NCBI GenBank assembly: GCA_017516965.1
Contig: JAFXAP010000015.1
Coordinates: 158,577 to 222,576 of the forward strand
Length of the DNA stretch: 64,000 nt
Reading direction: 5' to 3'
DNA from: Clostridia bacterium
Lineage (GTDB): Bacteria; Bacillota; Clostridia; Oscillospirales; Acutalibacteraceae
A program made the translations under genes and the position numbers. Below are positions 30,035-42,615 of the stretch, one piece after another (the stretch's first letter is position 1; every line of letters begins with the position of its first letter). Below the pieces are notes generated by a model. It did no database searches and was not told where the DNA came from. It saw nothing but the letters and a program-made list of their open reading frames with translations.

Positions 30035-30065
30035 ATAAACACTCCTATTTGCTAACTATATTTTT

Positions 30066-30094
30066 ATTATATAATTATTAAACCGAATTTTCAA
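30066..30094 (-). promoter_or_regulatory. Sigma-A promoter of GH95 gene
   Basis: TTGAAA (30094-30089), 17 bases, TATAAT (30071-30066) on the minus strand. Confidence 0.8.
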
Positions 30095-30103
30095 CAATAA
30101 AAA

Positions 30104-30129
30104 AAGAAGATGCCCTAAAGCATCTTCTT
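30104..30129 (-). terminator. Terminator after the sorted surface protein gene
   Basis: A perfect 10-bp stem, AAGAAGATGC with 6-base loop, followed on the minus strand by TTTTT. Confidence 0.8.
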
Positions 30130-30146
30130 AAAAATTTTATTTAAAA

Positions 30147-30704
30147 TTATTTTGAATAAACTTTTTTAATACCAAAGCAGAATGCTGCAGCTGCAAGCAA
30201 AACGATTGCGATATAGTAAACAGATGTGTCACCTGTTGGATCGCTCTTGTCTGAATCGTCAACGTTGCTCTGCTCGTTAGGATCGGTGATCTTATCATCA
30301 TAGTTACCGCAAACAACAACCGAATTTAAAACCTTGATTGTCATTTCAGTTGATGTAAGGCTACCTTTTACGATTTCATAATCGGTGCCCTCTACTGCCT
30401 TAACAGTTTTTGAAGTAGCAAGGTTAAGAACGCTTAAAGTAACCATACCTGTTGCAGGTGCATTTTTGCCTGTTTTGTAAACGCTCCAGCTCTTAAATGT
30501 ACCATACTTAGGATCAGCCTTAACTGTAATTGTATCGCCTGCATCAAGTGTAATTTCTTTATCGATATCACCTTCTACAAAATCAGCCTTTCTTACAGTC
30601 ACTGTAACCTTTTCTGTAGCTACAGGGCTTTTTGCCGCAAACGCTGTTACAGAAAAACAGCAAATCATAACTATGCTAAGAACTAATGCAACTATCTTTT
30701 TCAT
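30147..30704 (-). CDS. Small secreted surface protein with PTGD-type sorting tail
   Basis: A 185-residue protein with a signal peptide (about 1-24, ending VTAFAA), a single beta-rich domain (~25-135; TITVKADPKYGTFKSWSVYK), an acidic linker and a C-terminal DPTGD motif followed by a hydrophobic helix and KKVYSK. That tail is a variant of the LPXTG-like cell-wall sorting signal common in Ruminococcaceae. No sortase is in the window. The ectodomain is not recognised. It has its own promoter and terminator. Confidence 0.75.
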   Translation of the reverse strand: MKKIVALVLSIVMICCFSVTAFAAKSPVATEKVTVTVRKADFVEGDIDKEITLDAGDTITVKADPKYGTFKSWSVYKTGKNAPATGMVTLSVLNLATSKTVKAVEGTDYEIVKGSLTSTEMTIKVLNSVVVCGNYDDKITDPNEQSNVDDSDKSDPTGDTSVYYIAIVLLAAAAFCFGIKKVYSK

Positions 30705-30751
30705 TTTTACAAACCTCCGTAAAAAATATAAAATACAACTATACGACTAAT

Positions 30752-30780
30752 ATTATAAACCATTAAATTCAAAAAGTAAA
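30752..30780 (-). promoter_or_regulatory. Sigma-A promoter of the sorted surface protein
   Basis: TTTACT (30780-30775), 17 bases, TATAAT (30757-30752) on the minus strand. Confidence 0.75.
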
Positions 30781-30868
30781 GTCTTTTTTTAAAAAATTTT
30801 ATTTTTTCTTGATACCTCGCATATTTTGTGGTAAACTTTATGAGATATAATATATAAGGAGTAATACC

Positions 30869-32458
30869 GTGGATTTAAAGCAAGAAATAAACCGTCGTCG
30901 CACCTTTGCAATCATTTCGCATCCTGACGCCGGTAAAACAACACTTACTGAAAAACTACTGCTTTACGGAGGCGCTATTCAAACCGCGGGTTCGGTTAAA
31001 GGTAAAGCTACCGCAAAACATGCCGTTTCCGACTGGATGGAGCTTGAAAAACAACGTGGTATTTCTATCACCTCGTCGGTAATGCAGTTTGAATACGATG
31101 GCTACTGTATAAATATTCTCGATACCCCCGGACACCAAGACTTCTCTGAAGATACCTACCGCACACTTATGGCGGCTGACAGCGTTGTTATGGTTATTGA
31201 CGCGGCAAAGGGGATAGAACCGCAAACCCGTAAACTCTTTAAGGTAACGGCTATGCGCAATATTCCGATTTTTACCTTTATAAACAAACTTGACCGCGAT
31301 GCGCGTGACCCGTTTGAATTGCTCGACCAGCTTGAAAAGGAATTTGGCATAGGCACCTATCCTATAAACTGGCCTATTGGTTGCGGTGTTGATTTTAAGG
31401 GCGTATTTGACCGTGACCGACGTCAGATTATGACCTTTAATGACTTTCATCGAGGTCAGGACAAATTAAAAGCAATTGAATGTGACATAACCGATACCGA
31501 AAAACTTGACGAACTTATCGGCGAATACTCGCGTCGCGACCTTGTTGACCAGATAGAACTGCTTGACGGTGCAAGTTATGATTTTGACCTTGAACAAGTC
31601 CGTTGCGGCAAACTGACCCCTGTTTTCTTTGGCTCAGCCCTTACAAACTTTGGTGTTGAACCTTTTCTTGAAAACTTTTTAAAAATGACCACCGCTCCCC
31701 TTGCACGTAACACAAAAGAGGGCAAGGTTACACCTGAAAGTGAAAATTTTTCAGCATTTGTATTTAAAATTCAAGCAAATATGAACAAGGCTCATCGTGA
31801 CCGTATGACCTTTATGCGCATTTGCTCGGGTAAATTTGAGCGCGATAAAGAATACTATCACGTTCAAGGCAAAAAGAGTCTTCGCCTAAGTCAACCGCAA
31901 CAACTTATGGCTGATAGCCGACAAATTGTAAATGAAGCGTATGCCGGTGATATTATAGGTGTTTTTGATCCGGGTATTTTCTCTATTGGCGATACAGTTT
32001 GTGAGTCAAAGCACAAGGTCGAGTTTGAAGGCATACCCACCTTTGCGCCCGAACACTTTGCTATTATTGAACACAAAGACAGCCTTAAACGTAAGCAGTT
32101 TGTAAAAGGTGTTGAGCAAATAGCCCAAGAAGGCGCTATTCAAATCTTCCACGAACCAAATACGGGTATGGAACGCGTTATTGTAGGTGTTGTTGGTGTG
32201 CTTCAGTTTGAAGTGCTTGAACACCGCCTTAAAAATGAATATAACGTTGATGTTATTCGTAGCAATTTGCCATATCAATTTATTCGTTGGATTGGCAATG
32301 ATGATATCGACGTATCAAAACTAAACCTCACATCTGATACAAAATGGGTACAGGATTTCAAGGGTAACAACCTGCTCGTTTTCACAAGCGAATGGAATAT
32401 AAACTGGGCGCTTGAAAAGAACGAGGGCTTAATTCTTGAAGATTTCAGTAAAAACTAA
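30869..32458 (+). CDS. prfC: Peptide chain release factor 3
   Basis: A 529-residue translational GTPase, normal RF3 length. G1 is ISHPDAGKTTLTEKLL (~16-31), G3 DTPGHQDFSEDTYRTL, and G4 NKLDRDARDP. The RF3-specific stretches WPIGCGVDFKGVFDR and GNNLLVFTSEWN confirm RF3 rather than EF-G. RF3 recycles RF1/RF2 from the ribosome after peptide release. The start is GTG with AAGGAG 7 bases upstream. A TATAAT lies at about 30847, but I see no good -35. The SDR gene begins 10 bases after the stop. Confidence 0.97.
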   Translation: MDLKQEINRRRTFAIISHPDAGKTTLTEKLLLYGGAIQTAGSVKGKATAKHAVSDWMELEKQRGISITSSVMQFEYDGYCINILDTPGHQDFSEDTYRTLMAADSVVMVIDAAKGIEPQTRKLFKVTAMRNIPIFTFINKLDRDARDPFELLDQLEKEFGIGTYPINWPIGCGVDFKGVFDRDRRQIMTFNDFHRGQDKLKAIECDITDTEKLDELIGEYSRRDLVDQIELLDGASYDFDLEQVRCGKLTPVFFGSALTNFGVEPFLENFLKMTTAPLARNTKEGKVTPESENFSAFVFKIQANMNKAHRDRMTFMRICSGKFERDKEYYHVQGKKSLRLSQPQQLMADSRQIVNEAYAGDIIGVFDPGIFSIGDTVCESKHKVEFEGIPTFAPEHFAIIEHKDSLKRKQFVKGVEQIAQEGAIQIFHEPNTGMERVIVGVVGVLQFEVLEHRLKNEYNVDVIRSNLPYQFIRWIGNDDIDVSKLNLTSDTKWVQDFKGNNLLVFTSEWNINWALEKNEGLILEDFSKN

Positions 32459-32468
32459 GGGTGATATT

Positions 32469-33227
32469 ATGAATATAGCTGTAATAACAGGCGCATCCTC
32501 CGGTCTTGGATGGGAATTTGCCAAAGCGGTTTACAACAACCGACCCGACCTTGATGAAGTTTGGGTAATAGCGCGACGTCAAGAACGTTTGCAAGAATTA
32601 CAAGCAGAGCTTGGAAACACAATAATCCCCCTTGCTTTCGACATAACCGACCCGCAAGCAGTCCTAGACTACAGCAACCTTTTAAAAGAAAAGGGTGTTG
32701 ATGTAAAATTGCTTATAAATAATGCAGGTTTTGGTAAGCTTGGCAGTTTTGATAAACTCTCACTGGAAGAAAACACGCGTATGGTCCGTCTTAATTGCGA
32801 AGCGCTTACCGCAATAACTGCGGCAACACTACCCCATATGCCCGAAAAAAGCGAAATTATCAATAGTTGCTCTATTGCGTCTTTTGCTCCCAACACACGT
32901 ATGGCGGTATATTCTTCTACCAAAGCGTATGTTATGAGCCTTTCACGCGCGTTGCGTGAGGAATTAAAGAGTCGCAAAATAAACGTGTTGGCTGTTTGCC
33001 CCGGTCCTATGGACACCGAATTTTTATCGGTTGCAAACATTCAAAAGGGCGCAAGTCGTACCTTCGACACGCTACCTCGCGTTAATGCGCACACAATAGC
33101 GGTAAAGTCACTGGGTGCATCCCGCCGCGGTCGCGCAGTTTACACCAATCGTATATTTTATAAATTTTATCGTTTACTTGCAAAGATACTGCCTCACTCA
33201 TTAGTTATGAAACTGTGTGGCACCTGA
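32469..33227 (+). CDS. Short-chain dehydrogenase/reductase
   Basis: A 252-residue classical SDR. The NAD(P)-binding TGASSGLG is at residues 8-15, NNAG at ~86-89, the catalytic Ser in SCSIAS (~137) and YSSTKAY with catalytic Tyr and Lys (~151-155), then PGPMDTEF. It reduces or oxidises an unknown small substrate. An in-frame start exists 33 bases upstream, but the ATG at 32469 follows GGGTGAT and begins the conserved beta-1 strand. It shares a transcript with prfC, and a terminator follows. Confidence 0.93.
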   Translation: MNIAVITGASSGLGWEFAKAVYNNRPDLDEVWVIARRQERLQELQAELGNTIIPLAFDITDPQAVLDYSNLLKEKGVDVKLLINNAGFGKLGSFDKLSLEENTRMVRLNCEALTAITAATLPHMPEKSEIINSCSIASFAPNTRMAVYSSTKAYVMSLSRALREELKSRKINVLAVCPGPMDTEFLSVANIQKGASRTFDTLPRVNAHTIAVKSLGASRRGRAVYTNRIFYKFYRLLAKILPHSLVMKLCGT

Positions 33228-33243
33228 TTAAAAAGCAAAATTA

Positions 33244-33280
33244 AACCCCGACTGTCTTTTGACAATCGGGGTTGTTTTTT
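33244..33280 (+). terminator. Terminator after prfC-SDR
   Basis: AACCCCGA-C-TGTC paired with GACA-A-TCGGGGTT around TTTT, followed by GTTTTTT. Confidence 0.8.
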
Positions 33281-33288
33281 ACACCATA

Positions 33289-35124
33289 TTAGTATTTTTT
33301 ATAAAGTGGGCCGTAGGCTTTACATGCGCGGTAGTCCTGACCCTCTTTGTCCATACCAAATGCATTCCAAGCAGCAGGACGATAAATTTCATCCTCAGGT
33401 ACGTTGTGCATACAAACAGGGATGCGGAGCATTGAGCACATTGTGATAAGGTCTGCGCCAATATGACCATAGCTGATAGCGCCGTGGTTAGCGCCCCAGT
33501 TCATCATTACCTCATAAGCGGTCTTAAACGGTGAGCCCTCTTTACCGTCGCAACGGGGAGCAAACCATGTGCAAGGCCAGGTTGGGTTGGTGCGTTCCAT
33601 AAGTGTGTCAGAAACTTCATCAGGAAGTTTAACAGTCCAACCTTCAGCAATCTGAAGCACAGGACCCAAGCCTTTTACAAGGTTAAGTCTTATCATTGTG
33701 CAAGGCATTTCTGCGCGGGTTGTATAATGGCTTGAGAAACCGCCGCCACGGAAGTTATCAAAACCTGCTTCGCACCAAACGGTAGCATCTGTCATCTTCT
33801 TGATATCTTCATCGGTAACTTCCCACCATTTTTTCATAACAGCGTTGCCGTTTTCGTCGGTGCATTCACCACAAGCATCAAGACAAGCAGCGCCCGAATT
33901 CAGAAGGTGTATAATACCATTAGACTCAGCAGCCTTGCCCTCAAGTTTATAGCCTGTAACTCGCTCGGTTGCTTCACCTGACCAATATGTACGAACGTCA
34001 GCAAAAATTTGTGCGCGGTGTGTAAGCAAACGCATCATAAGCATACCCATACCGTTTAAAATGTCGTTTTCGGTAGCAAGGGTAAATGGTTCGCGTGCGC
34101 CGTCATAGTCAAAGGTTGAAGAAAGAAGCGCTTCAGGATAGTCACAGTTTGGCCAATGGTCAGTCCACTGACGCTGACCCTGGAAACCGCCCGCAATAGC
34201 GTTATGACCAACCTTTTCTTCCTCGAATGCATCGGGAAGATTTGGGTTGCCTGCCATAAGGTCTTTTATAATGCAGTACATTTTAACGGTGAATTCCCAC
34301 TGTTTTTCTTTTTCTTCAGGGGTAAATTTAATACGACGTTCTTCGCCTAAAAACTCAACTGATTCGGGGTTATCGTCTCTACCCTCTTTGCAGTGTTCCT
34401 TGGTCCAGGCAAGAGCCTTTTGGTATTCTTCTTCGTTGTAGATGCCCTCTTCCATTCGGCGAAGGATTTCAACCTCGTCAACCGATTCAATACGCATACC
34501 AAAATATGCTTCCATCATATCTTGGTCCATAATTGAACCTGCAATACCCATACACTGTGAACCAATTTGCAAATATGACTTGCCACGCATTGTAGCAACT
34601 GCTACAGCCGCGCGACCAAAGCGCAAGAGCTTTTCCTTTACGTCTTCGGGAATTTCAGATACTTGGTCACGGTCTTGAACCTCGTGACCGTAGATGCCAA
34701 ATGCGGGAAGACCCTTTTGAGCGTGACCTGCCAAAACTGCGGCAAGGTAAACAGCGCCCGGACGCTCGGTGCCGTTAAAGCCCCAAACACCCTTAATTGT
34801 ATTGGGGTCCATATCCATAGTTTCTGAACCATAGCACCAACAAGGTGTTACAGAAAGGGTGATGTCTACGCCCTCTTTTTTAAACTTTTTAGCGCAAGCG
34901 GCTGCCTCTGGCACACGACCGATACTGGTATCAGCCATAACAACCTTAACAGGATCACCGTTTGAATAAAAAAGATTTTCCTCAAAAAGTTTTTTTGCAG
35001 CGTTTGCCATAGCCATAACCTGTGCTTCAAGGCTTTCACGCAACTGCATAGGTCCTCTGCGGCCATCTACGACAGGACGAATACCAATTACAGGGTAACC
35101 GCCTACGTATCTTGATTTGCTCAT
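33289..35124 (-). CDS. fucI: L-fucose isomerase
   Basis: A 611-residue protein matching FucI along its length: GIRPVVDGRRGPMQLRESLE near the N-terminus, TPCWCYGSETMDMDP (~95-109), GFNGTERPGAVYLA and GRAAVAVATMRGKSYLQIG. Near the C-terminus are SSHYTTRAEMPCTMIRLNL and WGANHGAISYGHIGADL. The Mn-dependent enzyme converts L-fucose to L-fuculose in the cytoplasm, and can also take D-arabinose. It is slightly longer than the E. coli form (591). AAGGAG precedes the ATG. No fuculokinase or aldolase is nearby. Confidence 0.95.
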   Translation of the reverse strand: MSKSRYVGGYPVIGIRPVVDGRRGPMQLRESLEAQVMAMANAAKKLFEENLFYSNGDPVKVVMADTSIGRVPEAAACAKKFKKEGVDITLSVTPCWCYGSETMDMDPNTIKGVWGFNGTERPGAVYLAAVLAGHAQKGLPAFGIYGHEVQDRDQVSEIPEDVKEKLLRFGRAAVAVATMRGKSYLQIGSQCMGIAGSIMDQDMMEAYFGMRIESVDEVEILRRMEEGIYNEEEYQKALAWTKEHCKEGRDDNPESVEFLGEERRIKFTPEEKEKQWEFTVKMYCIIKDLMAGNPNLPDAFEEEKVGHNAIAGGFQGQRQWTDHWPNCDYPEALLSSTFDYDGAREPFTLATENDILNGMGMLMMRLLTHRAQIFADVRTYWSGEATERVTGYKLEGKAAESNGIIHLLNSGAACLDACGECTDENGNAVMKKWWEVTDEDIKKMTDATVWCEAGFDNFRGGGFSSHYTTRAEMPCTMIRLNLVKGLGPVLQIAEGWTVKLPDEVSDTLMERTNPTWPCTWFAPRCDGKEGSPFKTAYEVMMNWGANHGAISYGHIGADLITMCSMLRIPVCMHNVPEDEIYRPAAWNAFGMDKEGQDYRACKAYGPLYKKY

Positions 35125-35165
35125 AGTGTTACAACTCCTTTATGTAAAATATAAATAATAAAACA

Positions 35166-35183
35166 AAATCTGAATTACAGATT
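35166..35183 (-). terminator. Weak hairpin after gtrA-like gene
   Basis: AATCTG/CAGATT stem of 6 bp with loop of 5, followed on the minus strand by TTGTTTT. It may only partly end transcription before fucI. Confidence 0.4.
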
Positions 35184-35184
35184 A

Positions 35185-35595
35185 TTATTTTCTACCAAAT
35201 GTATATACCTTCATTATAATATATGTAAGTGGTCCGCCAACCATTGCGGCAAGAATTGTGCCCCAAAACTGCGGTAACTTTAACGTGTTAATTGTAATAA
35301 AGGTAACCAAAAAACCAATAATTAAACAGGGTATATATGAAACAATAAATTTTGTATATCTTTTAAGTGTAGGACTTTTTTTGAATATAAAGTAACTGTT
35401 TAAAAAGAAAGCGATAAAATTTGAAAAGAAAAAGCCCACAACGTATGCCGCATTTGCCTGCATAAAATGGCTGAAAAGTTTTGAAAAAAGACCGTGGGTA
35501 ATGGTATTAACGAGTCCAAAAACGCAAAACTCTAAAAACTTTTTACTTACAAAGGTTCTTTTAAGTTTTAAAAAAAATTCACGAATGGCTCTCAC
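35185..35595 (-). CDS. GtrA-family membrane protein
   Basis: A 136-residue protein with four membrane helices, the GtrA pattern: FCVFGLVNTITHGLFSKLF, AAYVVGFFFSNFIAFFLNSYFIF, the third helix around YIPCLIIGFLVTF and the last around LAAMVGGPLTYII. GtrA proteins are thought to help flip lipid-linked sugars for cell-surface polysaccharide. The start is GTG. TATAAT lies only about 15 bases upstream and there is no clear Shine-Dalgarno, so the leader is very short. Confidence 0.85.
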   Translation of the reverse strand: MRAIREFFLKLKRTFVSKKFLEFCVFGLVNTITHGLFSKLFSHFMQANAAYVVGFFFSNFIAFFLNSYFIFKKSPTLKRYTKFIVSYIPCLIIGFLVTFITINTLKLPQFWGTILAAMVGGPLTYIIMKVYTFGRK

Positions 35596-35660
35596 CCCAT
35601 TTGCACGAATATTATATCAAAATAATTATAACAAATACTTAATAAAAAAGCAAGATTATG

Positions 35661-35689
35661 TTGACATTACCACGTGTTTAGGCTAAAAT
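35661..35689 (+). promoter_or_regulatory. Promoter of tRNA-Arg
   Basis: TTGACA (35661-35666), 17 bases, TAAAAT (35684-35689). Confidence 0.8.
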
Positions 35690-35709
35690 TAACAAGCAGT
35701 TAAAAATAT

Positions 35710-35784
35710 GCCCCCTTAGTTAAATGGATATAATGGACCCCTCCTAAGGGTCAGTTGTGCGTTCGATTCGCGCAGGGGGTGCCA
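35710..35784 (+). tRNA. tRNA-Arg (anticodon CCU)
   Basis: A complete cloverleaf including encoded CCA. The acceptor stem GCCCCCT/AGGGGGT has one G-T closing pair; the anticodon stem GACCC/GGGTC holds the loop CTCCTAA with anticodon CCT, and the T-arm has TTCGATT. It reads AGG codons. Promoter and terminator flank it closely. Confidence 0.95.
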
Positions 35785-35812
35785 AAAACGCAAGTCAAAC
35801 GACTTGCGTTTT
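35785..35812 (+). terminator. Terminator of tRNA-Arg
   Basis: A perfect 12-bp stem, AAAACGCAAGTC with loop AAAC, ending in TTTT. Confidence 0.8.
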
Positions 35813-35994
35813 ATCCAATCCAACAGGATTGGTATGTCATCACGGCAAAGCCGTGTATGTTATCCGTCACACAGTGACGGTATGTCATCAGCCGTAAGGC
35901 TGTATTAAAATATCCTGTCGCATTGATGACATACAACACTTCGTGTTGATTACATACCGCTGATGGCGAATTACATACAATGCTTTGCATTGAT
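35813..35994 (+). repeat. Array of seven short hairpins with inverted linker motif
   Basis: Seven short inverted repeats follow one another: CCAATCC/GGATTGG, CACGGC/GCCGTG, CCGTCAC/GTGACGG, CAGCC/GGCTG, CAACAC/GTGTTG, a weak CGC/GCG, and CAATGC/GCATTG. All except the weak one have 3-4-base loops. Arm sequences differ but stay paired. Linkers in the left half read TATGTCAT, TATGTTAT, TATGTCAT; those in the right half read the complement (ATGACATA, ATTACATA, ATTACATA). The whole could fold as a tree with three hairpins on each side of a central stem and one at the apex. The last hairpin ends 4 bases before the Shine-Dalgarno of the four-helix-bundle gene. Confidence 0.7.
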
Positions 35995-36008
35995 TTGGAG
36001 GCGATTTA

Positions 36009-36362
36009 TTGAAAGAAAATCTACTTATGAAATATTCCGAGCAGTTAGCTGTAGGTATTGAGTTTATTTGTAAGGAAATTAAACACAATTCAAATACAGT
36101 TTATCAAATCAAAAAATCTTCTTCAAGTGTTTATGCAAACATAAGCGAGGCACAATATGCACAAAGTCTTGCTGATATGCTTTCTAAATTCAAAATTGCG
36201 CGTAAAGAATGTATTGAAACTGAAAGTTGGCTAAAACTTTTGTTTGCAAATCAAGGTATTGATGAACCTACGTACAAAAAACATAGAAATCTTTGTGGCA
36301 GAATCCGTAGAATGTTAACCTCATCCTGTATCACTATAGAAAACAAAATTAATCAAAATTGA
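36009..36362 (+). CDS. Four-helix-bundle protein (23S rRNA intervening-sequence protein / S23 family)
   Basis: A 117-residue all-helical protein. The family pattern is visible: YSEQLAVGIEFICKEI (helix 1), VYQIKKSSSSVYANISEAQYAQS (helix 2 with the conserved SxxSxxANIxE), LADMLSKFKIARKECIETESWLKLL (helix 3) and a last Arg-rich helix. The fold is shared with rRNA intervening-sequence proteins and with Avd of diversity-generating retroelements, but there is no reverse transcriptase or rRNA here. The start is TTG at 36009 with GGAGG 7 bases upstream. Directly upstream lies the hairpin array. Function unknown. Confidence 0.85.
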   Translation: MKENLLMKYSEQLAVGIEFICKEIKHNSNTVYQIKKSSSSVYANISEAQYAQSLADMLSKFKIARKECIETESWLKLLFANQGIDEPTYKKHRNLCGRIRRMLTSSCITIENKINQN

Positions 36363-36365
36363 TTT

Positions 36366-36396
36366 AACTCGACCTCTTGGATCGGGTTTTTCTTTT
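36366..36396 (+). terminator. Terminator after four-helix-bundle gene
   Basis: AACTCGA-CC paired with GG-A-TCGGGTT (one bulge, one G-T), followed by TTTTCTTTTTC. Confidence 0.7.
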
Positions 36397-36398
36397 TC

Positions 36399-36427
36399 TT
36401 GTAATTTATAAGCACATATGTTAAAAT
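36399..36427 (+). promoter_or_regulatory. Promoter of the acyl-CoA ligase transcript
   Basis: TTGTAA (36399-36404), 17 bases, TAAAAT (36422-36427). The expected transcript start near 36434 coincides with the left arm of the following structure. Confidence 0.65.
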
Positions 36428-36435
36428 ATATCTAT

Positions 36436-36605
36436 GCCAAACTAATTAAATATGCAAAGTGGTATTTTAATTCTTTAGGGATGTTATACCCTTTTATACT
36501 TTTTACCAAACCCAATGAATTTGATAAAAACGCAAATTCTATTATGGGTTTGGTTAATACCATTTTGCATAATTAGTTTGGCGACTATCGGGGTTTGCGT
36601 TTTTT
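36436..36605 (+). promoter_or_regulatory. Structured 5' leader, candidate unknown cis-regulatory RNA
   Basis: Long arms at 36436-36466 and 36556-36582 pair over about 26 positions (both start GCCAAACTAATT when read inward; one 4-base insertion, one G-T-type difference). Inside are AGGG/CCCT (36477-36480 with 36489-36492) and ACCAAACCCA/TGGGTTTGGT (36505-36514 with 36545-36554, extended by GAATTT/AAATTC), giving a three-way junction. AAAAACGCAAA (36526-36536), inside the last stem, can instead pair with TTTGCGTTTTT (36594-36604). No known riboswitch motif was recognised. A palindromic MITE-like insertion is the alternative reading. Confidence 0.5.
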
Positions 36606-36641
36606 GTGCGGTTACTTCGGTAGCCGCACTTTTTATTTTTA
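36606..36641 (+). terminator. Intrinsic terminator/attenuator just before the ligase gene
   Basis: A perfect 10-bp GTGCGGTTAC stem (one G-T) capped by the stable TTCG tetraloop, followed by TTTTTATTTTT and immediately AAGGAG of the next gene. There is no gene between the upstream promoter and this hairpin, so it would attenuate the ligase. Confidence 0.7.
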
Positions 36642-36654
36642 AGGAGAAATGAAA

Positions 36655-38436
36655 ATGAGTGAAGAAAAGGAACTGACGGGTTATCCGTCTATTGATAAAC
36701 CTTGGTTGAAATACTACACGGAGGAGCAAATTAATCTTGCTTTGCCTAAAAACACAGCCTATCAGTATATGCGAGAGTGTAATAAAAACAATTTGGATGC
36801 TTGTGCTCTTGAGTATTTAGGCAAAAAAATTACATATCGTGAACTTTTTAAAAACATAGATATTGTTGCTAATTGCTTGTTGAGTATGGGTGTAAAGAAA
36901 GGCGATATTATTACCTCTTGTCTTGCCAACATGCCCGAATCTGCATATTTGATTTATGCCGCAAATAAGTTGGGCGTAATTATAGATTTGATCGACCCGT
37001 TTACTGTAAATGAAACAATGGCGAATTACTGCAACAATACACAAAGTAAAATCGTCTTCACACTTGATATAGCATACAAAAATGTTGAAAAATTACCCGA
37101 AAACACAAACATTGAAAGAATTGTGCTTGTTTCTCCTACACAGTCTATTAAATTGCTGAAAACGTTGTTGAGAATTAAAGACTCTGAAACTAAAAAAGCA
37201 TATAAGGGCAAAAATGCTATTTCGTGGGATGATTTTATTAAAAATAACATTGTCGACTCCAAAAAGTTGGCAGTAGATTATGAACAAAATCTACCTTTTG
37301 CAATTTTACATACGGGCGGTACAACTGGCATTCCTAAAGGGGCTTTGCTTTCGGTGGACAATGTAAATTCACTTGCATCGCAGTTTAAAAATTCTCCGTT
37401 AGAAATGAATAATGGCGAAACCGCCTTGAATCTTATGCCTCCTTTTGCAGCCTATGGGTTATGCAATGGTTTGCATTTGCATTTGTGCTGCGGTATGAAG
37501 GTTATAATGATTCCGACCTATGAGCCGAACAAAATTGTTGAGCAAATATTAAAACACAAGCCTAACCGTATTGCTTGTGCTCCTGCCCATTATGTTCATA
37601 TTGCAGAAAGCGAAAAGATAAAATCTGCGGATTTGTCATTTTTAAAAAGACCGATTGTGGGCGGTGATACGCTTAATACCAAATTAGAGGAAGAACTTAA
37701 CGAGCTGTTTGCTAAAGCCGGATGCAAAGATAAAATTACAAAAGGCTACGGATTAACTGAAACCGCATCGGGAATCTGTGTTTGTGTGAACAAGGCAGTA
37801 AACAAAATCGGTTCCGTTGGCATACCTATGGCAAAAAATATTGTTGCTGCATTTAGTCTTTCAGGGGAAGAAACCGAGTGCAAATATAACGAAGAAGGAG
37901 AGATTTGCATTTGCAGTCCTAACAATATGCTCGGATATTATAATAAACCAGAAGAAACTGAAAAAGTATTGAAAACACATAAAGATGGCAAGGTTTGGTT
38001 GCATACTGGCGATTTAGGTTATGTAGATGAAGACGGTAATGTTTTTATCAAAGGACGCCTAAAAAGAATGATAATTCAGTATTCAGGATTAAAGGCAAAT
38101 CCTTTTGAAGCGGAACGGGAAATATTAAAGAATGTCAATGTTAATAGTGTTGTGGTGGTTGGCATTAAAGATCCAAATCACAATCAAGGACAGTTGCCCG
38201 TAGCTTTTGTAAAAACAGAAGAAGGTGTTTCAGTTAATGAGCAAGATTTGATAGCGGAATTACATAAAAGTTGCGAAGATAATATCACATATTACTCTGT
38301 TCCTGTTGATTATATCATTATTGATACATACCCTAGAACACCTATTGGAAAAATTGACTTTAAGGAACTTACCAATATTTACGAGCGAGATTATAAAGAC
38401 AGAAAGATATTAAAACAGAAAGAATTAAAATTCTAA
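36655..38436 (+). CDS. AMP-binding acyl-CoA synthetase/ligase-like enzyme
   Basis: A 593-residue adenylate-forming enzyme. Core motifs are in order: ILHTGGTTGIPKGALLS (A3, ~218-234), KGYGLTETASGICV (A5), HTGDLGYVDEDGNVFIKGRLKRMI (A7-A8) and the catalytic Lys in RTPIGKIDF (A10) near the C-terminus. It activates a carboxylic acid, probably a fatty or aryl acid, to an acyl-AMP and then a thioester. I choose the ATG at 36655 because AAGGAG lies 8 bases upstream; the ATG at 36649 is too close. It is a lone gene with a structured leader, and no carrier protein or thioesterase is nearby. Confidence 0.9.
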   Translation: MSEEKELTGYPSIDKPWLKYYTEEQINLALPKNTAYQYMRECNKNNLDACALEYLGKKITYRELFKNIDIVANCLLSMGVKKGDIITSCLANMPESAYLIYAANKLGVIIDLIDPFTVNETMANYCNNTQSKIVFTLDIAYKNVEKLPENTNIERIVLVSPTQSIKLLKTLLRIKDSETKKAYKGKNAISWDDFIKNNIVDSKKLAVDYEQNLPFAILHTGGTTGIPKGALLSVDNVNSLASQFKNSPLEMNNGETALNLMPPFAAYGLCNGLHLHLCCGMKVIMIPTYEPNKIVEQILKHKPNRIACAPAHYVHIAESEKIKSADLSFLKRPIVGGDTLNTKLEEELNELFAKAGCKDKITKGYGLTETASGICVCVNKAVNKIGSVGIPMAKNIVAAFSLSGEETECKYNEEGEICICSPNNMLGYYNKPEETEKVLKTHKDGKVWLHTGDLGYVDEDGNVFIKGRLKRMIIQYSGLKANPFEAEREILKNVNVNSVVVVGIKDPNHNQGQLPVAFVKTEEGVSVNEQDLIAELHKSCEDNITYYSVPVDYIIIDTYPRTPIGKIDFKELTNIYERDYKDRKILKQKELKF

Positions 38437-38659
38437 TGTATTTATTTCTCTTTATCGTTCTATGGCTAGAACAACTATCGGTAGCTTGAAAAAAAGCAGA
38501 GAAGTTACAATAAAGTATTAGTGATAACGTCGAAACAAAGCGTAAACATATTACCTCTACCCTAAAATCACTGTTCTTGCTAATTACCTGCTAATCAAAC
38601 ACAGTAAAATAACATAAAATCAGCAGTAACGGCGTAACACAAGATAACACTTTAACCTT

Positions 38660-38687
38660 AAAAATCCCTTGACAACAAGGGATTTTT
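38660..38687 (+). terminator. Terminator, probably of the ligase transcript
   Basis: A perfect 12-bp stem, AAAAATCCCTTG with loop ACAA, ending in TTTTT, 223 bases past the ligase stop. Confidence 0.7.
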
Positions 38688-38731
38688 AAGTATTATGAGG
38701 GACACGAAAGTCCTTTCCCTCCATTATCTAA

Positions 38732-38764
38732 AAAACTCCCAACTCTTTACAAGTTGGGAGTTTT
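38732..38764. terminator. Terminator after first GH130 gene
   Basis: A perfect 13-bp stem, AAAACTCCCAACT and its complement, with a 7-base loop; A and T tracts on both sides. Confidence 0.8.
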
Positions 38765-38768
38765 AGTT

Positions 38769-39758
38769 TTAGATTGAATTTTCTTTTGTGAATTTGATAA
38801 GCTCGTCAACGGTGGTGAAGGCAAGGCCTACCACGGTGTCTGCCGCACCGTAGTAGATTGCAATTCTGCCGGTGTCGGCATCGCAAAGAGCAGATACGGG
38901 GAACACAACGTTTGGCACGTCGCCCGCAAGCTCATATATTTCACGAGGATTTAAAATATAATACTTTGTGCGGTAAAGAACTTTTGTGGGGTCATCACGG
39001 TCTAGTATTGCCGCGCCTGCATAATAACAAAGTCCGTTACAAGTACCTCTTACACCGTGATAAATAAGTAGCCATCCTTCATCGGTTTCAATCGGAGTGG
39101 GGCCGCCGCCAATCTTATAGTTTTGCCAACCGCGTGCCGGCTCCATAACAAGACGGTGCTTACCCCAATAGGTCATATCAGGACTCTCGCTGTAGTAAAT
39201 GCTACCGTTACCCGGGGTTCCGTGAGCGGGGTCAGAAGGGCGAGAAAACATAACATATTTATTGTTTATCTTACGTGGAAACAACACACCGTTGCGGTTA
39301 TATGGCAAAAATGCATTTTCCATATGATAGAATTTTTCAAAATCATCGGTATATGCCATACCAATTGTGGGTTCCCAGTTTTTCATACCGGTGCACCATA
39401 CTATGTAATATCTGCCGTCAATTTCGCAAACGCGTGGGTCATAGCCGTATTCATATGGCACACCCTCGATTGTGTTTTCAAATTTAATAGGCTCGTCATT
39501 TATTTCCCAATGAAGACCGTCTTTACTTTTACCTGTGTGAAGCAGTGGCAAAAAATCTCTGCGGTCACAACGGAAAACACCGCGAAACTCGTTGCCAAAA
39601 GGCACTACCGAGCTGTTAAACAAACTGTTAGCGCCCTTAATATCTTTGTATGAAAGTATTGGATTCTCACTATATCTCCAAACAGGCTCGTCACAGCCCT
39701 CGGGTCTGTCTTGCCAAGGCATATTGGGCAATGATTTTCCGTTAATTACTTTTGCCAT
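38769..39758 (-). CDS. GH130-family beta-mannoside phosphorylase
   Basis: A 329-residue five-bladed propeller enzyme. GH130 signatures include NSSVVPFGNEFRGVFRCD (~42-59), the putative catalytic Asp in YGYDPRVCEIDGRYYIVWC, FLPYNRNGVLFPRK and GGGPTPIETDEGWLLIYHG. Such enzymes phosphorolyse beta-1,4-mannosyl-glucose, mannobiose or Man-GlcNAc to mannose-1-P. The ATG at 39758 has GGAG 9 bases upstream; a GTG nine bases earlier overlaps that site. It is a close paralogue of the next gene, but has its own promoter. Confidence 0.93.
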   Translation of the reverse strand: MAKVINGKSLPNMPWQDRPEGCDEPVWRYSENPILSYKDIKGANSLFNSSVVPFGNEFRGVFRCDRRDFLPLLHTGKSKDGLHWEINDEPIKFENTIEGVPYEYGYDPRVCEIDGRYYIVWCTGMKNWEPTIGMAYTDDFEKFYHMENAFLPYNRNGVLFPRKINNKYVMFSRPSDPAHGTPGNGSIYYSESPDMTYWGKHRLVMEPARGWQNYKIGGGPTPIETDEGWLLIYHGVRGTCNGLCYYAGAAILDRDDPTKVLYRTKYYILNPREIYELAGDVPNVVFPVSALCDADTGRIAIYYGAADTVVGLAFTTVDELIKFTKENSI

Positions 39759-39790
39759 AATAAACACTCCTTAATAATATTGTTATTTTA

Positions 39791-39819
39791 ATTATATACC
39801 AAGACCTTACAAAAGGCAA
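39791..39819 (-). promoter_or_regulatory. Promoter of first GH130 gene
   Basis: TTGCCT (39819-39814), 17 bases, TATAAT (39796-39791) on the minus strand. Confidence 0.7.
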
Positions 39820-39820
39820 C

Positions 39821-39856
39821 AAAAAACACTTGACCGATTAGGTCAAGTGTTTTTTA
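39821..39856 (-). terminator. Terminator between the GH130 paralogues
   Basis: A perfect 15-bp stem, AAAAAACACTTGACC with loop GATTA, between the stop of the second copy and the promoter of the first. Confidence 0.85.
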
Positions 39857-39857
39857 C

Positions 39858-40847
39858 TTAAAATGAATTTTTCTTAACAAAATCAATAAGCTCGTCAACG
39901 GTGGTGTGCGCCATACCAACAACAGTATCTGCCGCGCCGTAGTAGATTGTAATTCTGCCTGTGTCGGCATCGCAAAGAGCCGCACACGGAAAGACAACGT
40001 TTGGCACATCGCCAACCTGCTCATAAATTTCGCGAGGACTAAGTATGTATTTTTTTGAGCGATAAAGCACTTTTGTTGGGTCGTCTAAGTCAAGCAATGC
40101 CGCGCCCGCATAATAGCAAAGTCCGTTACAGGTTTTCTTTACGCCGTGGTAGATAAGAAGCCAACCCTCATCAGTTTCGATAGGGGTGGGACCGCTACCA
40201 ATCTTGCAAGACTGCCAACCGCCTTTAGGCCCCATAACAAAGCTATGCTGTCCCCAAAATTCCAAATCTTTACTTTTACTTGCGTAAATGCTACCAACTG
40301 TTGGTAGATTTGGCGCCATAGGACGACTGAGCATTAAATAGTAACCGTTTATCTTACGCGGAAAGAGTGAGCCGTTGCGGTTGTATGGCAAAAATGGATT
40401 TTGCATAAGATAGAATTTTTCAAAATCCTCGGTCCAAGCCATACCTAAAGTTGGGTCCCAGTTGCCTGTGGCTGAATTTCTGCACCATATGATATAATAT
40501 TTACCCTCTAATTCGCAAATGCGTGGGTCATAGCCATATTCATATCTCTGACCGTCAATTTCATTTTCGAATTTAAGTGGCTCGTCATCTATTTCCCAAT
40601 TAATGCCATCCTTACTTTTGCCCTTGTGCAAAAGAGGCAGCATATCGGTTTTGTCACAACGAAAAACTCCTCTAAATTCACCCTTAAACGCTACAACAGA
40701 ACTGTTAAAAAGACTGTTTGCATCCTCGATATCATCGCGGGTGAGTATTGGGTTAAGAGAGCTACGCCAACAAACGTCTTTACAGTTTGCGGGTCTTTCT
40801 TCCCAAGGGATGTTTGGTATTGACCTGCCGTTTAGTACCTTTGCCAT
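39858..40847 (-). CDS. GH130-family beta-mannoside phosphorylase, paralogue
   Basis: A 329-residue paralogue of the preceding protein, alike through nearly its whole length (NSSVVAFKGEFRGVFRCDKTD, YGYDPRICELEGKYYIIWC, FLPYNRNGSLFPRK, GSGPTPIETDEGWLLIYHG). Differences cluster in the loops after the third and fourth blades (GTPGNGSIYYSES versus LPTVGSIYASKS), which line the substrate pocket in this family, so specificity may differ. GGAG precedes the ATG. It is 79 bases downstream of an AraC regulator and has its own promoter. Confidence 0.93.
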   Translation of the reverse strand: MAKVLNGRSIPNIPWEERPANCKDVCWRSSLNPILTRDDIEDANSLFNSSVVAFKGEFRGVFRCDKTDMLPLLHKGKSKDGINWEIDDEPLKFENEIDGQRYEYGYDPRICELEGKYYIIWCRNSATGNWDPTLGMAWTEDFEKFYLMQNPFLPYNRNGSLFPRKINGYYLMLSRPMAPNLPTVGSIYASKSKDLEFWGQHSFVMGPKGGWQSCKIGSGPTPIETDEGWLLIYHGVKKTCNGLCYYAGAALLDLDDPTKVLYRSKKYILSPREIYEQVGDVPNVVFPCAALCDADTGRITIYYGAADTVVGMAHTTVDELIDFVKKNSF

Positions 40848-40880
40848 AAAATCAACTCCTGATTTAATTTTTGCAAAATC

Positions 40881-40909
40881 AATATAACATTTGTCGCCAA
40901 AATAAACAA
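40881..40909 (-). promoter_or_regulatory. Promoter of second GH130 gene
   Basis: TTGTTT (40909-40904), 17 bases, TATATT (40886-40881) on the minus strand. Confidence 0.6.
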
Positions 40910-40926
40910 GAAGTTTTTAAACTTTT

Positions 40927-41736
40927 TTAGGAATTATTTTTACCATTTGCATATTCTTTTGGCGTGACACCATATTTTTCTTTAAAACGGCGGCTAAAGT
41001 TTCGCACGGTGCCAAAACCGCTTTCATAACAGGCGTCTATTACGCGGTTGCCGTTAAGCAATAATTTTTTAGCGTAATCAAAACGCTTTTCGGCAAGGTA
41101 ATCATTAAAGCACATACCCGTGCGTCGTTTAAATTCACGGCTAAAATATGCGGGCGAAACGCTAAACTTTTCCCTAATTATGTTAAGGGTGATTTCATTT
41201 CTGAAATTTATGTTTATAAAACCGATTGCTTGTGAAACGGCGTCTGACGCATATTTCTTTTCGTAATTTATTGCCTTTGTGCCAAAAAGGTCAAGAACAA
41301 TTATTTCTATAACGTTTTTAAGCTGTAAAATGGCATAATCGCGGTTTGATTTAAAAACTCCTACCAGATATTTTAAATCTGCTACCGTTTTTTCACCTGC
41401 CCCACGCACAATGTCGGCATTTAGGTAACTTAGCATCTGGGCAATCTCGGGCGACATATCTTTGGCATAGAAGTGAACGGTTATGGTTTTTATGTTGGCG
41501 GTTTCAAAACCGTGAAAATCCATAGGGGTAATAAACAGCAAATCCCCCTTTTGCACGGTATATGACTTGCCATTTATAAGATGGGTGCCGCTACCCTCGG
41601 TTATGTATTCTATCTCATAAAAATCGTGTTGATGTAACGGATGATTTTGATTAAGCACATTTTCACAAACCAAAAAATCCCCTATTTTTCTACGATGCCG
41701 TTGGTTATATATTAAAGGAATTTCTTTTGCTTTCAT
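40927..41736 (-). CDS. AraC-family transcriptional regulator (GH130 neighbour)
   Basis: A 269-residue regulator with a cupin N-domain (HPLHQHDFYEIEYITEGSGTHLING, KGDLLFITPMDFHGFE) and a C-terminal AraC double HTH (~170-265; LNIIREKFSVSPAYFSREFKRRTG and VIDACYESGFGTVRNFSRRFKEKYG). GAGGTAAG precedes the ATG. It lies 9 bases after a DUF4097 gene, so it may be transcribed with the PadR module, and just upstream of two GH130 genes, its likely targets. Confidence 0.92.
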   Translation of the reverse strand: MKAKEIPLIYNQRHRRKIGDFLVCENVLNQNHPLHQHDFYEIEYITEGSGTHLINGKSYTVQKGDLLFITPMDFHGFETANIKTITVHFYAKDMSPEIAQMLSYLNADIVRGAGEKTVADLKYLVGVFKSNRDYAILQLKNVIEIIVLDLFGTKAINYEKKYASDAVSQAIGFININFRNEITLNIIREKFSVSPAYFSREFKRRTGMCFNDYLAEKRFDYAKKLLLNGNRVIDACYESGFGTVRNFSRRFKEKYGVTPKEYANGKNNS

Positions 41737-41745
41737 AACTTACCT

Positions 41746-42615
41746 CTATTTTACCACTTTGAAATAAATGTCGCCCGTGTTGGTATCAATTTCAAAAACA
41801 CCGTCATTTTTAGTTGGTGGCACCTTTACGCTACCCGTGTCGGTATTGGTTTTAAAGGTTGGTGCGTGATACAAATTACCCTCAACATCACCTGTATTAG
41901 TCTTAACCTTAACATACGGCGCCTTAACCACATGAAACCAAACGTCGCCTGTGGCGGTTTGCACAGTGATTGTATCACTTACCATTGTTCGTAACAGCTT
42001 TACGTCGCCAGTATCACTTTCTACTTTTATATTTTTGCACTTGATAACGTTAACATTTCTATCTATATTGCCTATTTCTATCTTTCCTGTATCGGTAGAT
42101 ATATCAAGCAAATCTGACACTGATGACAGCAGCGTAACGTCACCCGTGTCGGTTTCGATTTTGATGTTAGTAAAGGCAAAATCCTTTGGTATGGTTATAT
42201 CGCTTGTGTCACTCTCTATGCTAAGTGAGTTATAAGTTTCTTTGGGCAGATAGACGGTAAGCGACCACTTACCAAAAGAAATACCAATATGCTCATACCA
42301 CTTACGACTATCTTGTATAGATATAAAAAGCGTATCATTATCGACGTTTACTGTGTGTTTTAAATTTGGGGTATCAATAAACACAACTTTGCACCTATTG
42401 TCATTTGATGGCGCAAATTTTATATCAGAAGTGTTTACGTCTATTTTTATATTGCTGAAATCCTGGTCAATTTGCTGTTCGCTTTCAATAAATTTTTCGG
42501 TTGAGAGGCCAGTAAAATCAAAATTTAACGATGCGAGCGCCAAAGCGCTTATTATAGCGCCTGATATAATCAGGCAAACGGCTAGTATAATCCAGACTTT
42601 TTTAAACTTTTTCAT
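41746..42615 (-). CDS. DUF4097-family beta-repeat membrane protein
   Basis: A 289-residue protein with an N-terminal membrane segment (VWIILAVCLIISGAIISALAL) and a long right-handed beta-repeat ectodomain. Repeats of the type S/T-D-T-G-D-V recur about every 20 residues (ETDTGDVTLL, STDTGKIEIG, ESDTGDVKLL, KTNTGDVEGN, TNTGDIYF), the hallmark of DUF4097. The start at 42615 follows GGAGGGG; a longer frame does not. It overlaps DUF1700 by 14 bases in the common PadR-DUF1700-DUF4097 order. Biochemical role unknown. Confidence 0.9.
   Translation of the reverse strand: MKKFKKVWIILAVCLIISGAIISALALASLNFDFTGLSTEKFIESEQQIDQDFSNIKIDVNTSDIKFAPSNDNRCKVVFIDTPNLKHTVNVDNDTLFISIQDSRKWYEHIGISFGKWSLTVYLPKETYNSLSIESDTSDITIPKDFAFTNIKIETDTGDVTLLSSVSDLLDISTDTGKIEIGNIDRNVNVIKCKNIKVESDTGDVKLLRTMVSDTITVQTATGDVWFHVVKAPYVKVKTNTGDVEGNLYHAPTFKTNTDTGSVKVPPTKNDGVFEIDTNTGDIYFKVVK

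Follow-up and report, generated by a model that had tools for sequence, protein, structure and literature searches.

A hairpin-spaced inverted linker array and its four-helix-bundle gene as a putative mobile module at tRNA gene ends

The locus in the window

In the 64-kb window (the whole 64,000-nt stretch of DNA analysed here), seven palindromes spanning positions 35815-35992 lie between the terminator of a tRNA-Arg gene and a gene encoding a four-helix-bundle (4HB) protein of the PF05635 family. The tRNA-Arg (CCT) gene (35710-35784, plus strand), located with ARAGORN and the sole match of an Rfam scan of the window, terminates in the CCA that forms the left boundary of the module proposed below; its 3′ end is a polymorphic insertion site in the genus. 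Directly behind it stands a terminator hairpin (AAAACGCAAGTC..GACTTGCGTTTT; 35785-35812, plus strand) with 100% complementary arms, which we read as belonging to the module because, in another clade, the same terminator occurs behind different tRNAs.

The array opens with palindrome H1 (CCAATCC-AACA-GGATTGG, 35815-35832), followed by three plus-strand linkers, TATGTCAT (35833-35840), TATGTTAT (35856-35863) and again TATGTCAT (35881-35888), each of which precedes a further palindrome: H2 (CACGGC-AAA-GCCGTG, 35841-35855), H3 (CCGTCAC-ACA-GTGACGG, 35864-35880) and H4 (CAGCC-GTAA-GGCTG, 35889-35902). Next comes a middle segment (35903-35925) at the H1′ position of relatives; H1 is largely complementary to this segment too, and its stretch ATCCTGTCGCATTG matches the complement of part of H1 at 86%. 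The right half carries the minus-strand linkers ATGACATA (35926-35933), the complement of TATGTCAT, and twice ATTACATA (35949-35956 and 35970-35977), in alternation with H5 (CAACAC-TTC-GTGTTG, 35934-35948), H6 (35957-35969; decayed, with three pairs left, and reading CCGCC-GAT-GGCGG in copy 1 of genome G021) and H7 (CAATGC-TTT-GCATTG, 35978-35992). Four bases after H7 follows the ribosome-binding site GGAGG (35997-36001, plus strand), the gap between array and gene being too short for a promoter.

A first-pass annotation had described a hairpin array whose left-half linkers are of the TATGTYAT type and whose right-half linkers are complementary to them, ending 4 bases before the ribosome site, and this is what the sequence contains. 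It had further proposed three hairpins per side and one at the apex; the array is indeed inverted, but its left half has four palindromes to three in the right half, and what lies between them is not a simple apex hairpin. As RNA, either strand of the array has a folding energy well under that of dinucleotide shuffles (z = −5.7 and −5.6); as DNA, z = −6.4 against shuffles. The motif GTATGTYAT, expected 1.4 times in the window, occurs seven times, of which four fall within the array. The two-linker pattern was found nowhere else in the host genome (assembly 85% complete), without the genome-wide, REP-like scatter that the annotation had named as refuting its reading. An imperfect long inverted repeat (ATGCCAAACTAATTA.. 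/ ..TAATTAGTTTGGCG) occupies 36421-36610, in the intergenic spacer behind the 4HB gene.

The 4HB gene (36009-36362, plus strand) starts with TTG and encodes 117 amino acids. Profile searches placed the protein in PF05635 (65.2 bits against a cut-off of 33.8; E = 7.2e-18) and TIGR02436 (68.2 bits against 24; E = 6.3e-19), and the sole convincing solved relative by sequence was 2rld, with five chains (E = 2.5e-12), which bears out the predicted membership in the fold family of 23S-IVS and Avd proteins. PADLOC returned no match, and PHROGs two weak ones, both of unknown function. Proteins of PF05635 are known from intervening sequences (IVS) of 23S rRNA, and Xcc0516 is a homopentamer, according to passages in PMC4990558; other papers note the family as CRISPR-associated or in cas loci (PMC3936711, PMC10910872), and Avd as a related four-helix bundle (PMC10053308), and such proteins have also been described from CPR rRNA inserts. 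Of the 70 genus genomes, 57 contain TIGR02436, versus 0 of 14 control genomes. The host has three 4HB genes: the second lies behind a tRNA and has an array with the linkers GTGAAAT/ATTTCAC; the third (L079, contig C7) is 5′-truncated, has flanking heptamers and sits between atpG and atpD.

Arrays upstream of related genes

To score arrays, we required a 6-mer to occur at least three times and then its complement at least three times upstream of the gene (3+3). The genus set comprised 74 loci from ~150 TIGR02436 matches, namely the highest-scoring ones together with the three of the host; a second set, drawn from genome contigs, retained 80 loci among at least 548 relatives, three of them on contigs already in the genus set. 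Five duplicate loci were removed before the final counts. A 3+3 array preceded the 4HB gene at 33 of 70 deduplicated genus loci (controls elsewhere in the same loci, 0/228) and at 40 of 72 deduplicated loci of the second set (80 kept of at least 548; controls, 1/324), in agreement with the expectation that homologues would have arrays upstream. On contigs labelled viral, 2 of 10 loci had the array (controls, 0/45) and 0 of 10 a tRNA; the modules at L186, L187 and L244 are on contigs with a viral or phage label. Before deduplication, 33 of 71 genus loci passed, as compared to 0 of 1051 windows taken from the 64-kb stretch and 0 of 355 shuffles.

Counting against a general association, a strict upstream array was lacking at 37 of the 70 loci in the genus and at 32 of the 72 in the second set, and arrays without a 4HB gene exist. 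At part of the array-less loci, repeats instead flank the gene on both sides (21 of 72 genus loci when two copies on each side, 2+2, are required), and some have none. A second form of array consists of tandem heptamers without palindromes, which either all precede the gene or flank it on both sides.

Reading by eye 26 loci picked for clear arrays gave a canonical order: tRNA CCA, terminator, four linker-palindrome units, middle segment, complementary linkers with three palindromes, often a promoter, and the 4HB gene. In relatives, again by eye, the middle segment is complementary to the first linker together with the 5′ arm that comes first. Among 61 arrays, exact linker copies numbered 4+4 in 21, 3+4 in 15, 4+3 in 12 and 3+3 in 11. 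Five of the 74 loci (L031, L007, L015, L064 and L073) have direct array repeats that enclose the 4HB gene, or this gene and a neighbour. At L031, read on the reverse-complement strand from a tRNA-Gln, two full arrays (186 bases, 94.6% identical) enclose the 4HB gene and small cargo open reading frames (ORFs).

Linkers, stems and loops

Each protein clade has its own linker sequence. The TATGTYAT linkers of the first-pass annotation are therefore present in the window, but are not general. For 50 of the 74 genus loci with a usable linker, we scored a pair as sharing when the two had a linker 6-mer in common. Below 65% protein identity, sharing was found in 0/53, 1/92, 10/634 and 8/266 pairs of successive identity bands (0-3%); above it, with rising identity, in 29/76, 47/71, 17/19 and, beyond 95%, 14/14 pairs. 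None of 2000 permutations reached the observed trend. Several modules with different linkers occur within one genome. The match between linker and protein could be plain co-inheritance.

The annotation had also inferred selection for pairing rather than for sequence, and this is supported, some of the arm pairs being covariant. In one clade, 12 of 54 pairs showed compensatory changes, with both sides altered and the pairing kept. In the ATGATGT clade, aligned with L050 left out, the count was 11 of 50, which mixes local and cross-array pairing, as the consensus fold paired linkers across the array more than local palindromes. On the other side, many stem pairs are invariant, and the RNAalifold covariation term was not favourable in either clade.

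The base pairs themselves distinguish DNA from RNA. Across 238 palindromes of 61 arrays, stems comprised 782 Watson-Crick pairs, 13 G-T, 19 A-C and 77 other mismatches. Terminators of the same loci (n = 57) had 31 G-T and 1 A-C pairs (Fisher p ~1e-6 versus arrays), and the acceptor stems of 98 distinct tRNAs 37 and 2 (p ~6e-7). G-U pairs would be tolerated in a structure maintained as RNA, but the array stems show no preference for them. Since they lack the G-U excess, the constraint acts on DNA rather than RNA, and the pairing bears a DNA mark. Of the substrates that the annotation had considered, this result speaks against RNA and its tree fold. Loops between C and G were TTC in 28, TGC in 9, TAC in 4 and TCC in 3 of 100 left-half cases, which in RNA would read UNCG, and GAA in 23, GTA in 9, GCA in 9 and GGA in 3 of 146 right-half cases. 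GNA triloops are very stable in DNA, and the right-half loops are of this type.

Insertion sites and mobility

For 57 of 146 sampled 4HB genes, a same-strand tRNA ended no more than 360 bases upstream, compared with 4 of 3401 control positions, and the adjoining tRNAs belong to 15 isotypes. Among 40 pairs of tRNA-adjacent loci with proteins at least 85% identical, 38 sat at different tRNAs. Within these 38, leaders aligned over at least 80% of their length in 26 pairs, partially in 7 and not at all in 5, while no alignment was seen in the 300 bases before the tRNA (36 of 37 pairs) or in the 600 bases behind the gene (37 of 38). Reading the ends in three clades showed the shared block to be delimited exactly, by the CCA on the left and the 4HB stop codon on the right.

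At the tRNA-Arg site of the window, other members of the genus have the native terminator only (e.g. L198, 97% identical over the tRNA region), a window-like array with a 4HB gene (the window and L206), heptamers with a 4HB gene (L199, L215 and L217) or, by eye, an array directly after the CCA with no profile-listed 4HB gene (L204, L205, L207, L208, L210, L211 and L222). Between atpG and atpD, 15 of 21 loci read (of 30) were empty; L077, L079, L082 and L090 had a 4HB gene or its end, and L083 and L076, the latter cut by the contig end, heptamer arrays with no 4HB gene seen. Comparison of two Nostoc plasmid inserts with uninterrupted relatives indicated that ~330 and ~190 bases had been replaced and revealed no target-site duplication at either, which is odd for classic transposition. 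In the Nostoc plasmids L246, L247 and L240, a heptamer-flanked 4HB insert splits a cytosine methyltransferase gene.

A direct repeat of the tRNA 3′ end was found downstream at 1 of 55 loci, where it is a complete tRNA; flanks were mostly 0.3 to 3 kb, so that a farther end would escape. Repeats of the tRNA 3′ half are therefore rejected as a general att site within the flanks examined. A clear repeat exists at the tRNA-Arg of genome G021, with part matches in G026, G031, G053 and G061. The G021 locus (L227, contig C39, 3894-5207), an ortholog of the window locus, has the tRNA-Arg 3′ half twice downstream. These repeats enclose the same terminator and array without a 4HB gene, plus a gene pair that by eye resembles nucleotidyltransferase/HEPN; the last 3′-half copy is followed by a different terminator.

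Two enzymes were weighed as helpers in trans, and neither was linked to the 4HB gene. A Y1 transposase is encoded in 49 of 70 genus genomes (9 of 13 without and 40 of 57 with a 4HB gene), and none was found in the host (85% complete). Reverse transcriptase (RVT_1) is found in 17 of 70 (2 of 13 and 15 of 57, respectively); the host matches lie on contigs C12 and C1, the window on C15.

Genes behind the 4HB gene

At 28 loci the 4HB stop codon and the start codon of the ORF behind it share the sequence ATGA, 27 of them with at least 45 residues; one of the 27, L109, lacks the usual ending. The ribosome site of the cargo then falls inside the last 4HB codons. Such coupling was seen at only 19 of 57 tRNA-adjacent loci, which counts against it as a general feature. 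Pfam scans of 20 of the 28 ORFs gave above-cut-off matches to GNAT (3), ASCH (2), SUKH, DUF218 and NUDIX and, once each, to nucleotidyltransferase, methyltransferase, pyrophosphatase, WapI-like and DUF6678 families; of the others, one had an AAA match below the cut-off, one weak DUF matches and five no match.

Plasmids and defence loci

Beyond the genus, we read 18 of 28 matched plasmid records. A 6-mer present at least twice before the 4HB gene, with its complement at least twice after it, was found in 15 of 18 cases, as compared to 3 of 78 annotated control genes from two control stretches. Inverted heptamer flanks occur in Nostoc, Aulosira, Euhalothece, Planktothrix, Dolichospermum, Treponema, Bernardetia and Monoglobus, and at 2+2 only on the Chlorohelix and Gloeocapsa plasmids; the 4HB genes on Anabaena, Pseudanabaena and Leptolyngbya plasmids had no flanking repeats at this threshold. 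Tandem inverted heptamers hence bracket plasmid 4HB genes in cyanobacteria, a spirochaete and Bacteroidota, a clear example being Nostoc C052 with (AATTCGT)x4 before and (ACGAATT)x4 after the gene.

Several 4HB genes are located inside defence operons: between hsdS and hsdR, between drmD and pglX, beside cas1, and between cas2 and cas1. In the last case (L250, a plasmid of Anabaena cylindrica, 106-1488), the gene lies on the opposite strand, with no 2+2 array, which fits an insertion rather than a CRISPR role. The CRISPR-linked IVP genes reported earlier may be such insertions.

Discussion

Terminator, array and 4HB gene form a block that is conserved at different sites, with linkers that vary by clade and arms that change while pairing is kept at part of the positions. 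Sequence comparison gives good support to the view that this module moves as a block and that array and protein form a cognate pair, as the two-part system suggested by the first-pass annotation would require; mobility and the siting at tRNA 3′ ends are additions to that reading. Our preferred explanation, which we hold to be probable though far from secure, is a mobile module without a recombinase of its own, in which an oligomer of the 4HB protein binds its own linker array. Such a module would span from the terminator hairpin at the tRNA CCA through the inverted array to the 4HB stop codon, with an ideal array of four linkers and the same number of complementary ones, palindromes serving as spacers. 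The 4HB protein, whose solved relative is a pentamer, would bind its own linker repeats and fold the array into a nucleoprotein complex with the palindromes extruded. This complex may mark the module end for host enzymes of replication, recombination or repair, which would transfer the module to gene ends, those of tRNA genes among them. Neighbouring genes may be carried or captured and expressed by translational coupling, as suggested by the ATGA fusion of the 4HB stop codon to unrelated genes. The window copy might then be a partly decayed member without coupled cargo.

The exact boundary at tRNA ends of 15 isotypes would also be expected if larger elements, integrated at tRNA 3′ ends by a tyrosine recombinase acting in trans, had the module as their conserved left end, the array serving as arm-site or regulator and the 4HB protein as passenger or directionality factor. 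The G021 locus, where the tRNA-Arg 3′ half recurs twice downstream, once with the same terminator and array, and the variety of downstream genes also favour such elements. Yet a downstream tRNA 3′ repeat turned up at 1 of 55 loci (flanks mostly 0.3 to 3 kb), many sites are not tRNA genes (atpG-atpD, hsdS-hsdR and cas2-cas1), and the shared block stops at the 4HB stop codon; we consider larger elements unlikely. Somewhat more doubtful appears a primarily regulatory role, with the array mainly an operator at which the 4HB protein controls its own promoter and mobility is incidental. By eye, a −35/−10 pair directly follows the last linker in many tRNA-class loci, and the matching of linkers to proteins would suit an operator. 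Arrays in the window and in operon-class loci, however, abut the ribosome site with no promoter between, heptamer-class elements carry half of the array downstream of the gene, and the terminator and array move together with the gene as a unit.

An array that is transcribed, folded into a tree and bound or processed as RNA, like the 23S rRNA IVS, would account for the strong RNA folding and for the commonest left loop, TTC flanked by C and G (28 of 100), which would read as a UUCG tetraloop; RNase III excises IVS RNAs, as a section of PMC4990558 describes. The 13 G-T against 19 A-C pairs in arrays, set beside the strong G-U excess in terminators and tRNAs, the equal folding of the opposite strand and the promoter that follows the array in many loci make this improbable. 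As for chance, or ordinary terminator or REP-type repeats beside an unrelated gene, short palindromes are common between genes; however, none of the 1051 windows or 355 shuffles reached 3+3, the association with 4HB genes extends across several phyla, and no second copy of the pattern was found in the host genome (85% complete). We regard this last explanation as refuted by the window and shuffle controls and the phyla-wide association, and assign it hardly any weight.

Among known systems, the mobile module most resembles the 23S rRNA IVS, a selfish insert with complementary ends and, likewise, a PF05635 protein. Passages in PMC4990558 report that the Coxiella IVS has three GACAGAT heptamers and a degenerate fourth just before the S23p ORF, cite the idea that this ORF serves mobility, and describe function and origin of IVS inserts and the S23p protein as unclear. 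Given the common protein family, the heptamers before the S23p ORF and the mobility idea, the IVS is the nearest known kind. It nonetheless resides inside 23S rRNA and is cut out by RNase III, whereas the module occupies tRNA and gene ends, has a hairpin-spaced 4+4 array and bears a DNA mark; that of the window follows tRNA-Arg, and not a 23S rRNA interior, and has 8-mer linkers with palindromes; heptamers flank its plasmid relatives. Cyanobacterial short tandemly repeated repetitive (STRR) heptamers are tandem 7-mers in Nostoc and relatives, a form that the inverted tandem 7-mers around Nostoc 4HB genes also take; a link between STRR and a protein was not found in the literature searched.

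REP/BIME elements are inverted palindromes tied to a cognate RAYT transposase. The module differs from them in conserving linkers and not stems, in that no Y1 enzyme was found in the host (85% complete) and in its unscattered array. Integron attC sites are DNA palindromes conserved in structure and not sequence, with exchangeable small cargo genes. The module's array, unlike theirs, precedes the gene, and the 4HB gene travels along; no integron integrase was noticed by eye among the ORFs of 30000-42000. Nor is there a reverse transcriptase beside the window 4HB gene, as a diversity-generating retroelement with Avd would have. The literature searched, largely without subscription journals, contained no account of a tRNA-end module or of array-protein matching.

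More broadly, we tentatively suggest, as possible but not yet probable, a class of mobile DNA that lacks a recombinase, forms cassettes and occurs in at least four phyla. Its mobility apparatus would consist of a pentameric 4HB protein and a matched 4+4 inverted array, and it would unite the 23S rRNA IVS, cyanobacterial heptamers and 'CRISPR-associated' IVP genes as insertions of a single kind of element. The matched pairs of linker and protein permit a direct test of own against foreign arrays. If the proposal is true, a common module that has been overlooked is moving from one tRNA end to another in gut bacteria, varied genes come under its control, and heptamer repeats as well as stray genes in defence operons find an explanation. 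The hairpin array and its 4HB gene may thereby tie together bacterial repeats and insertions that have hitherto seemed separate.
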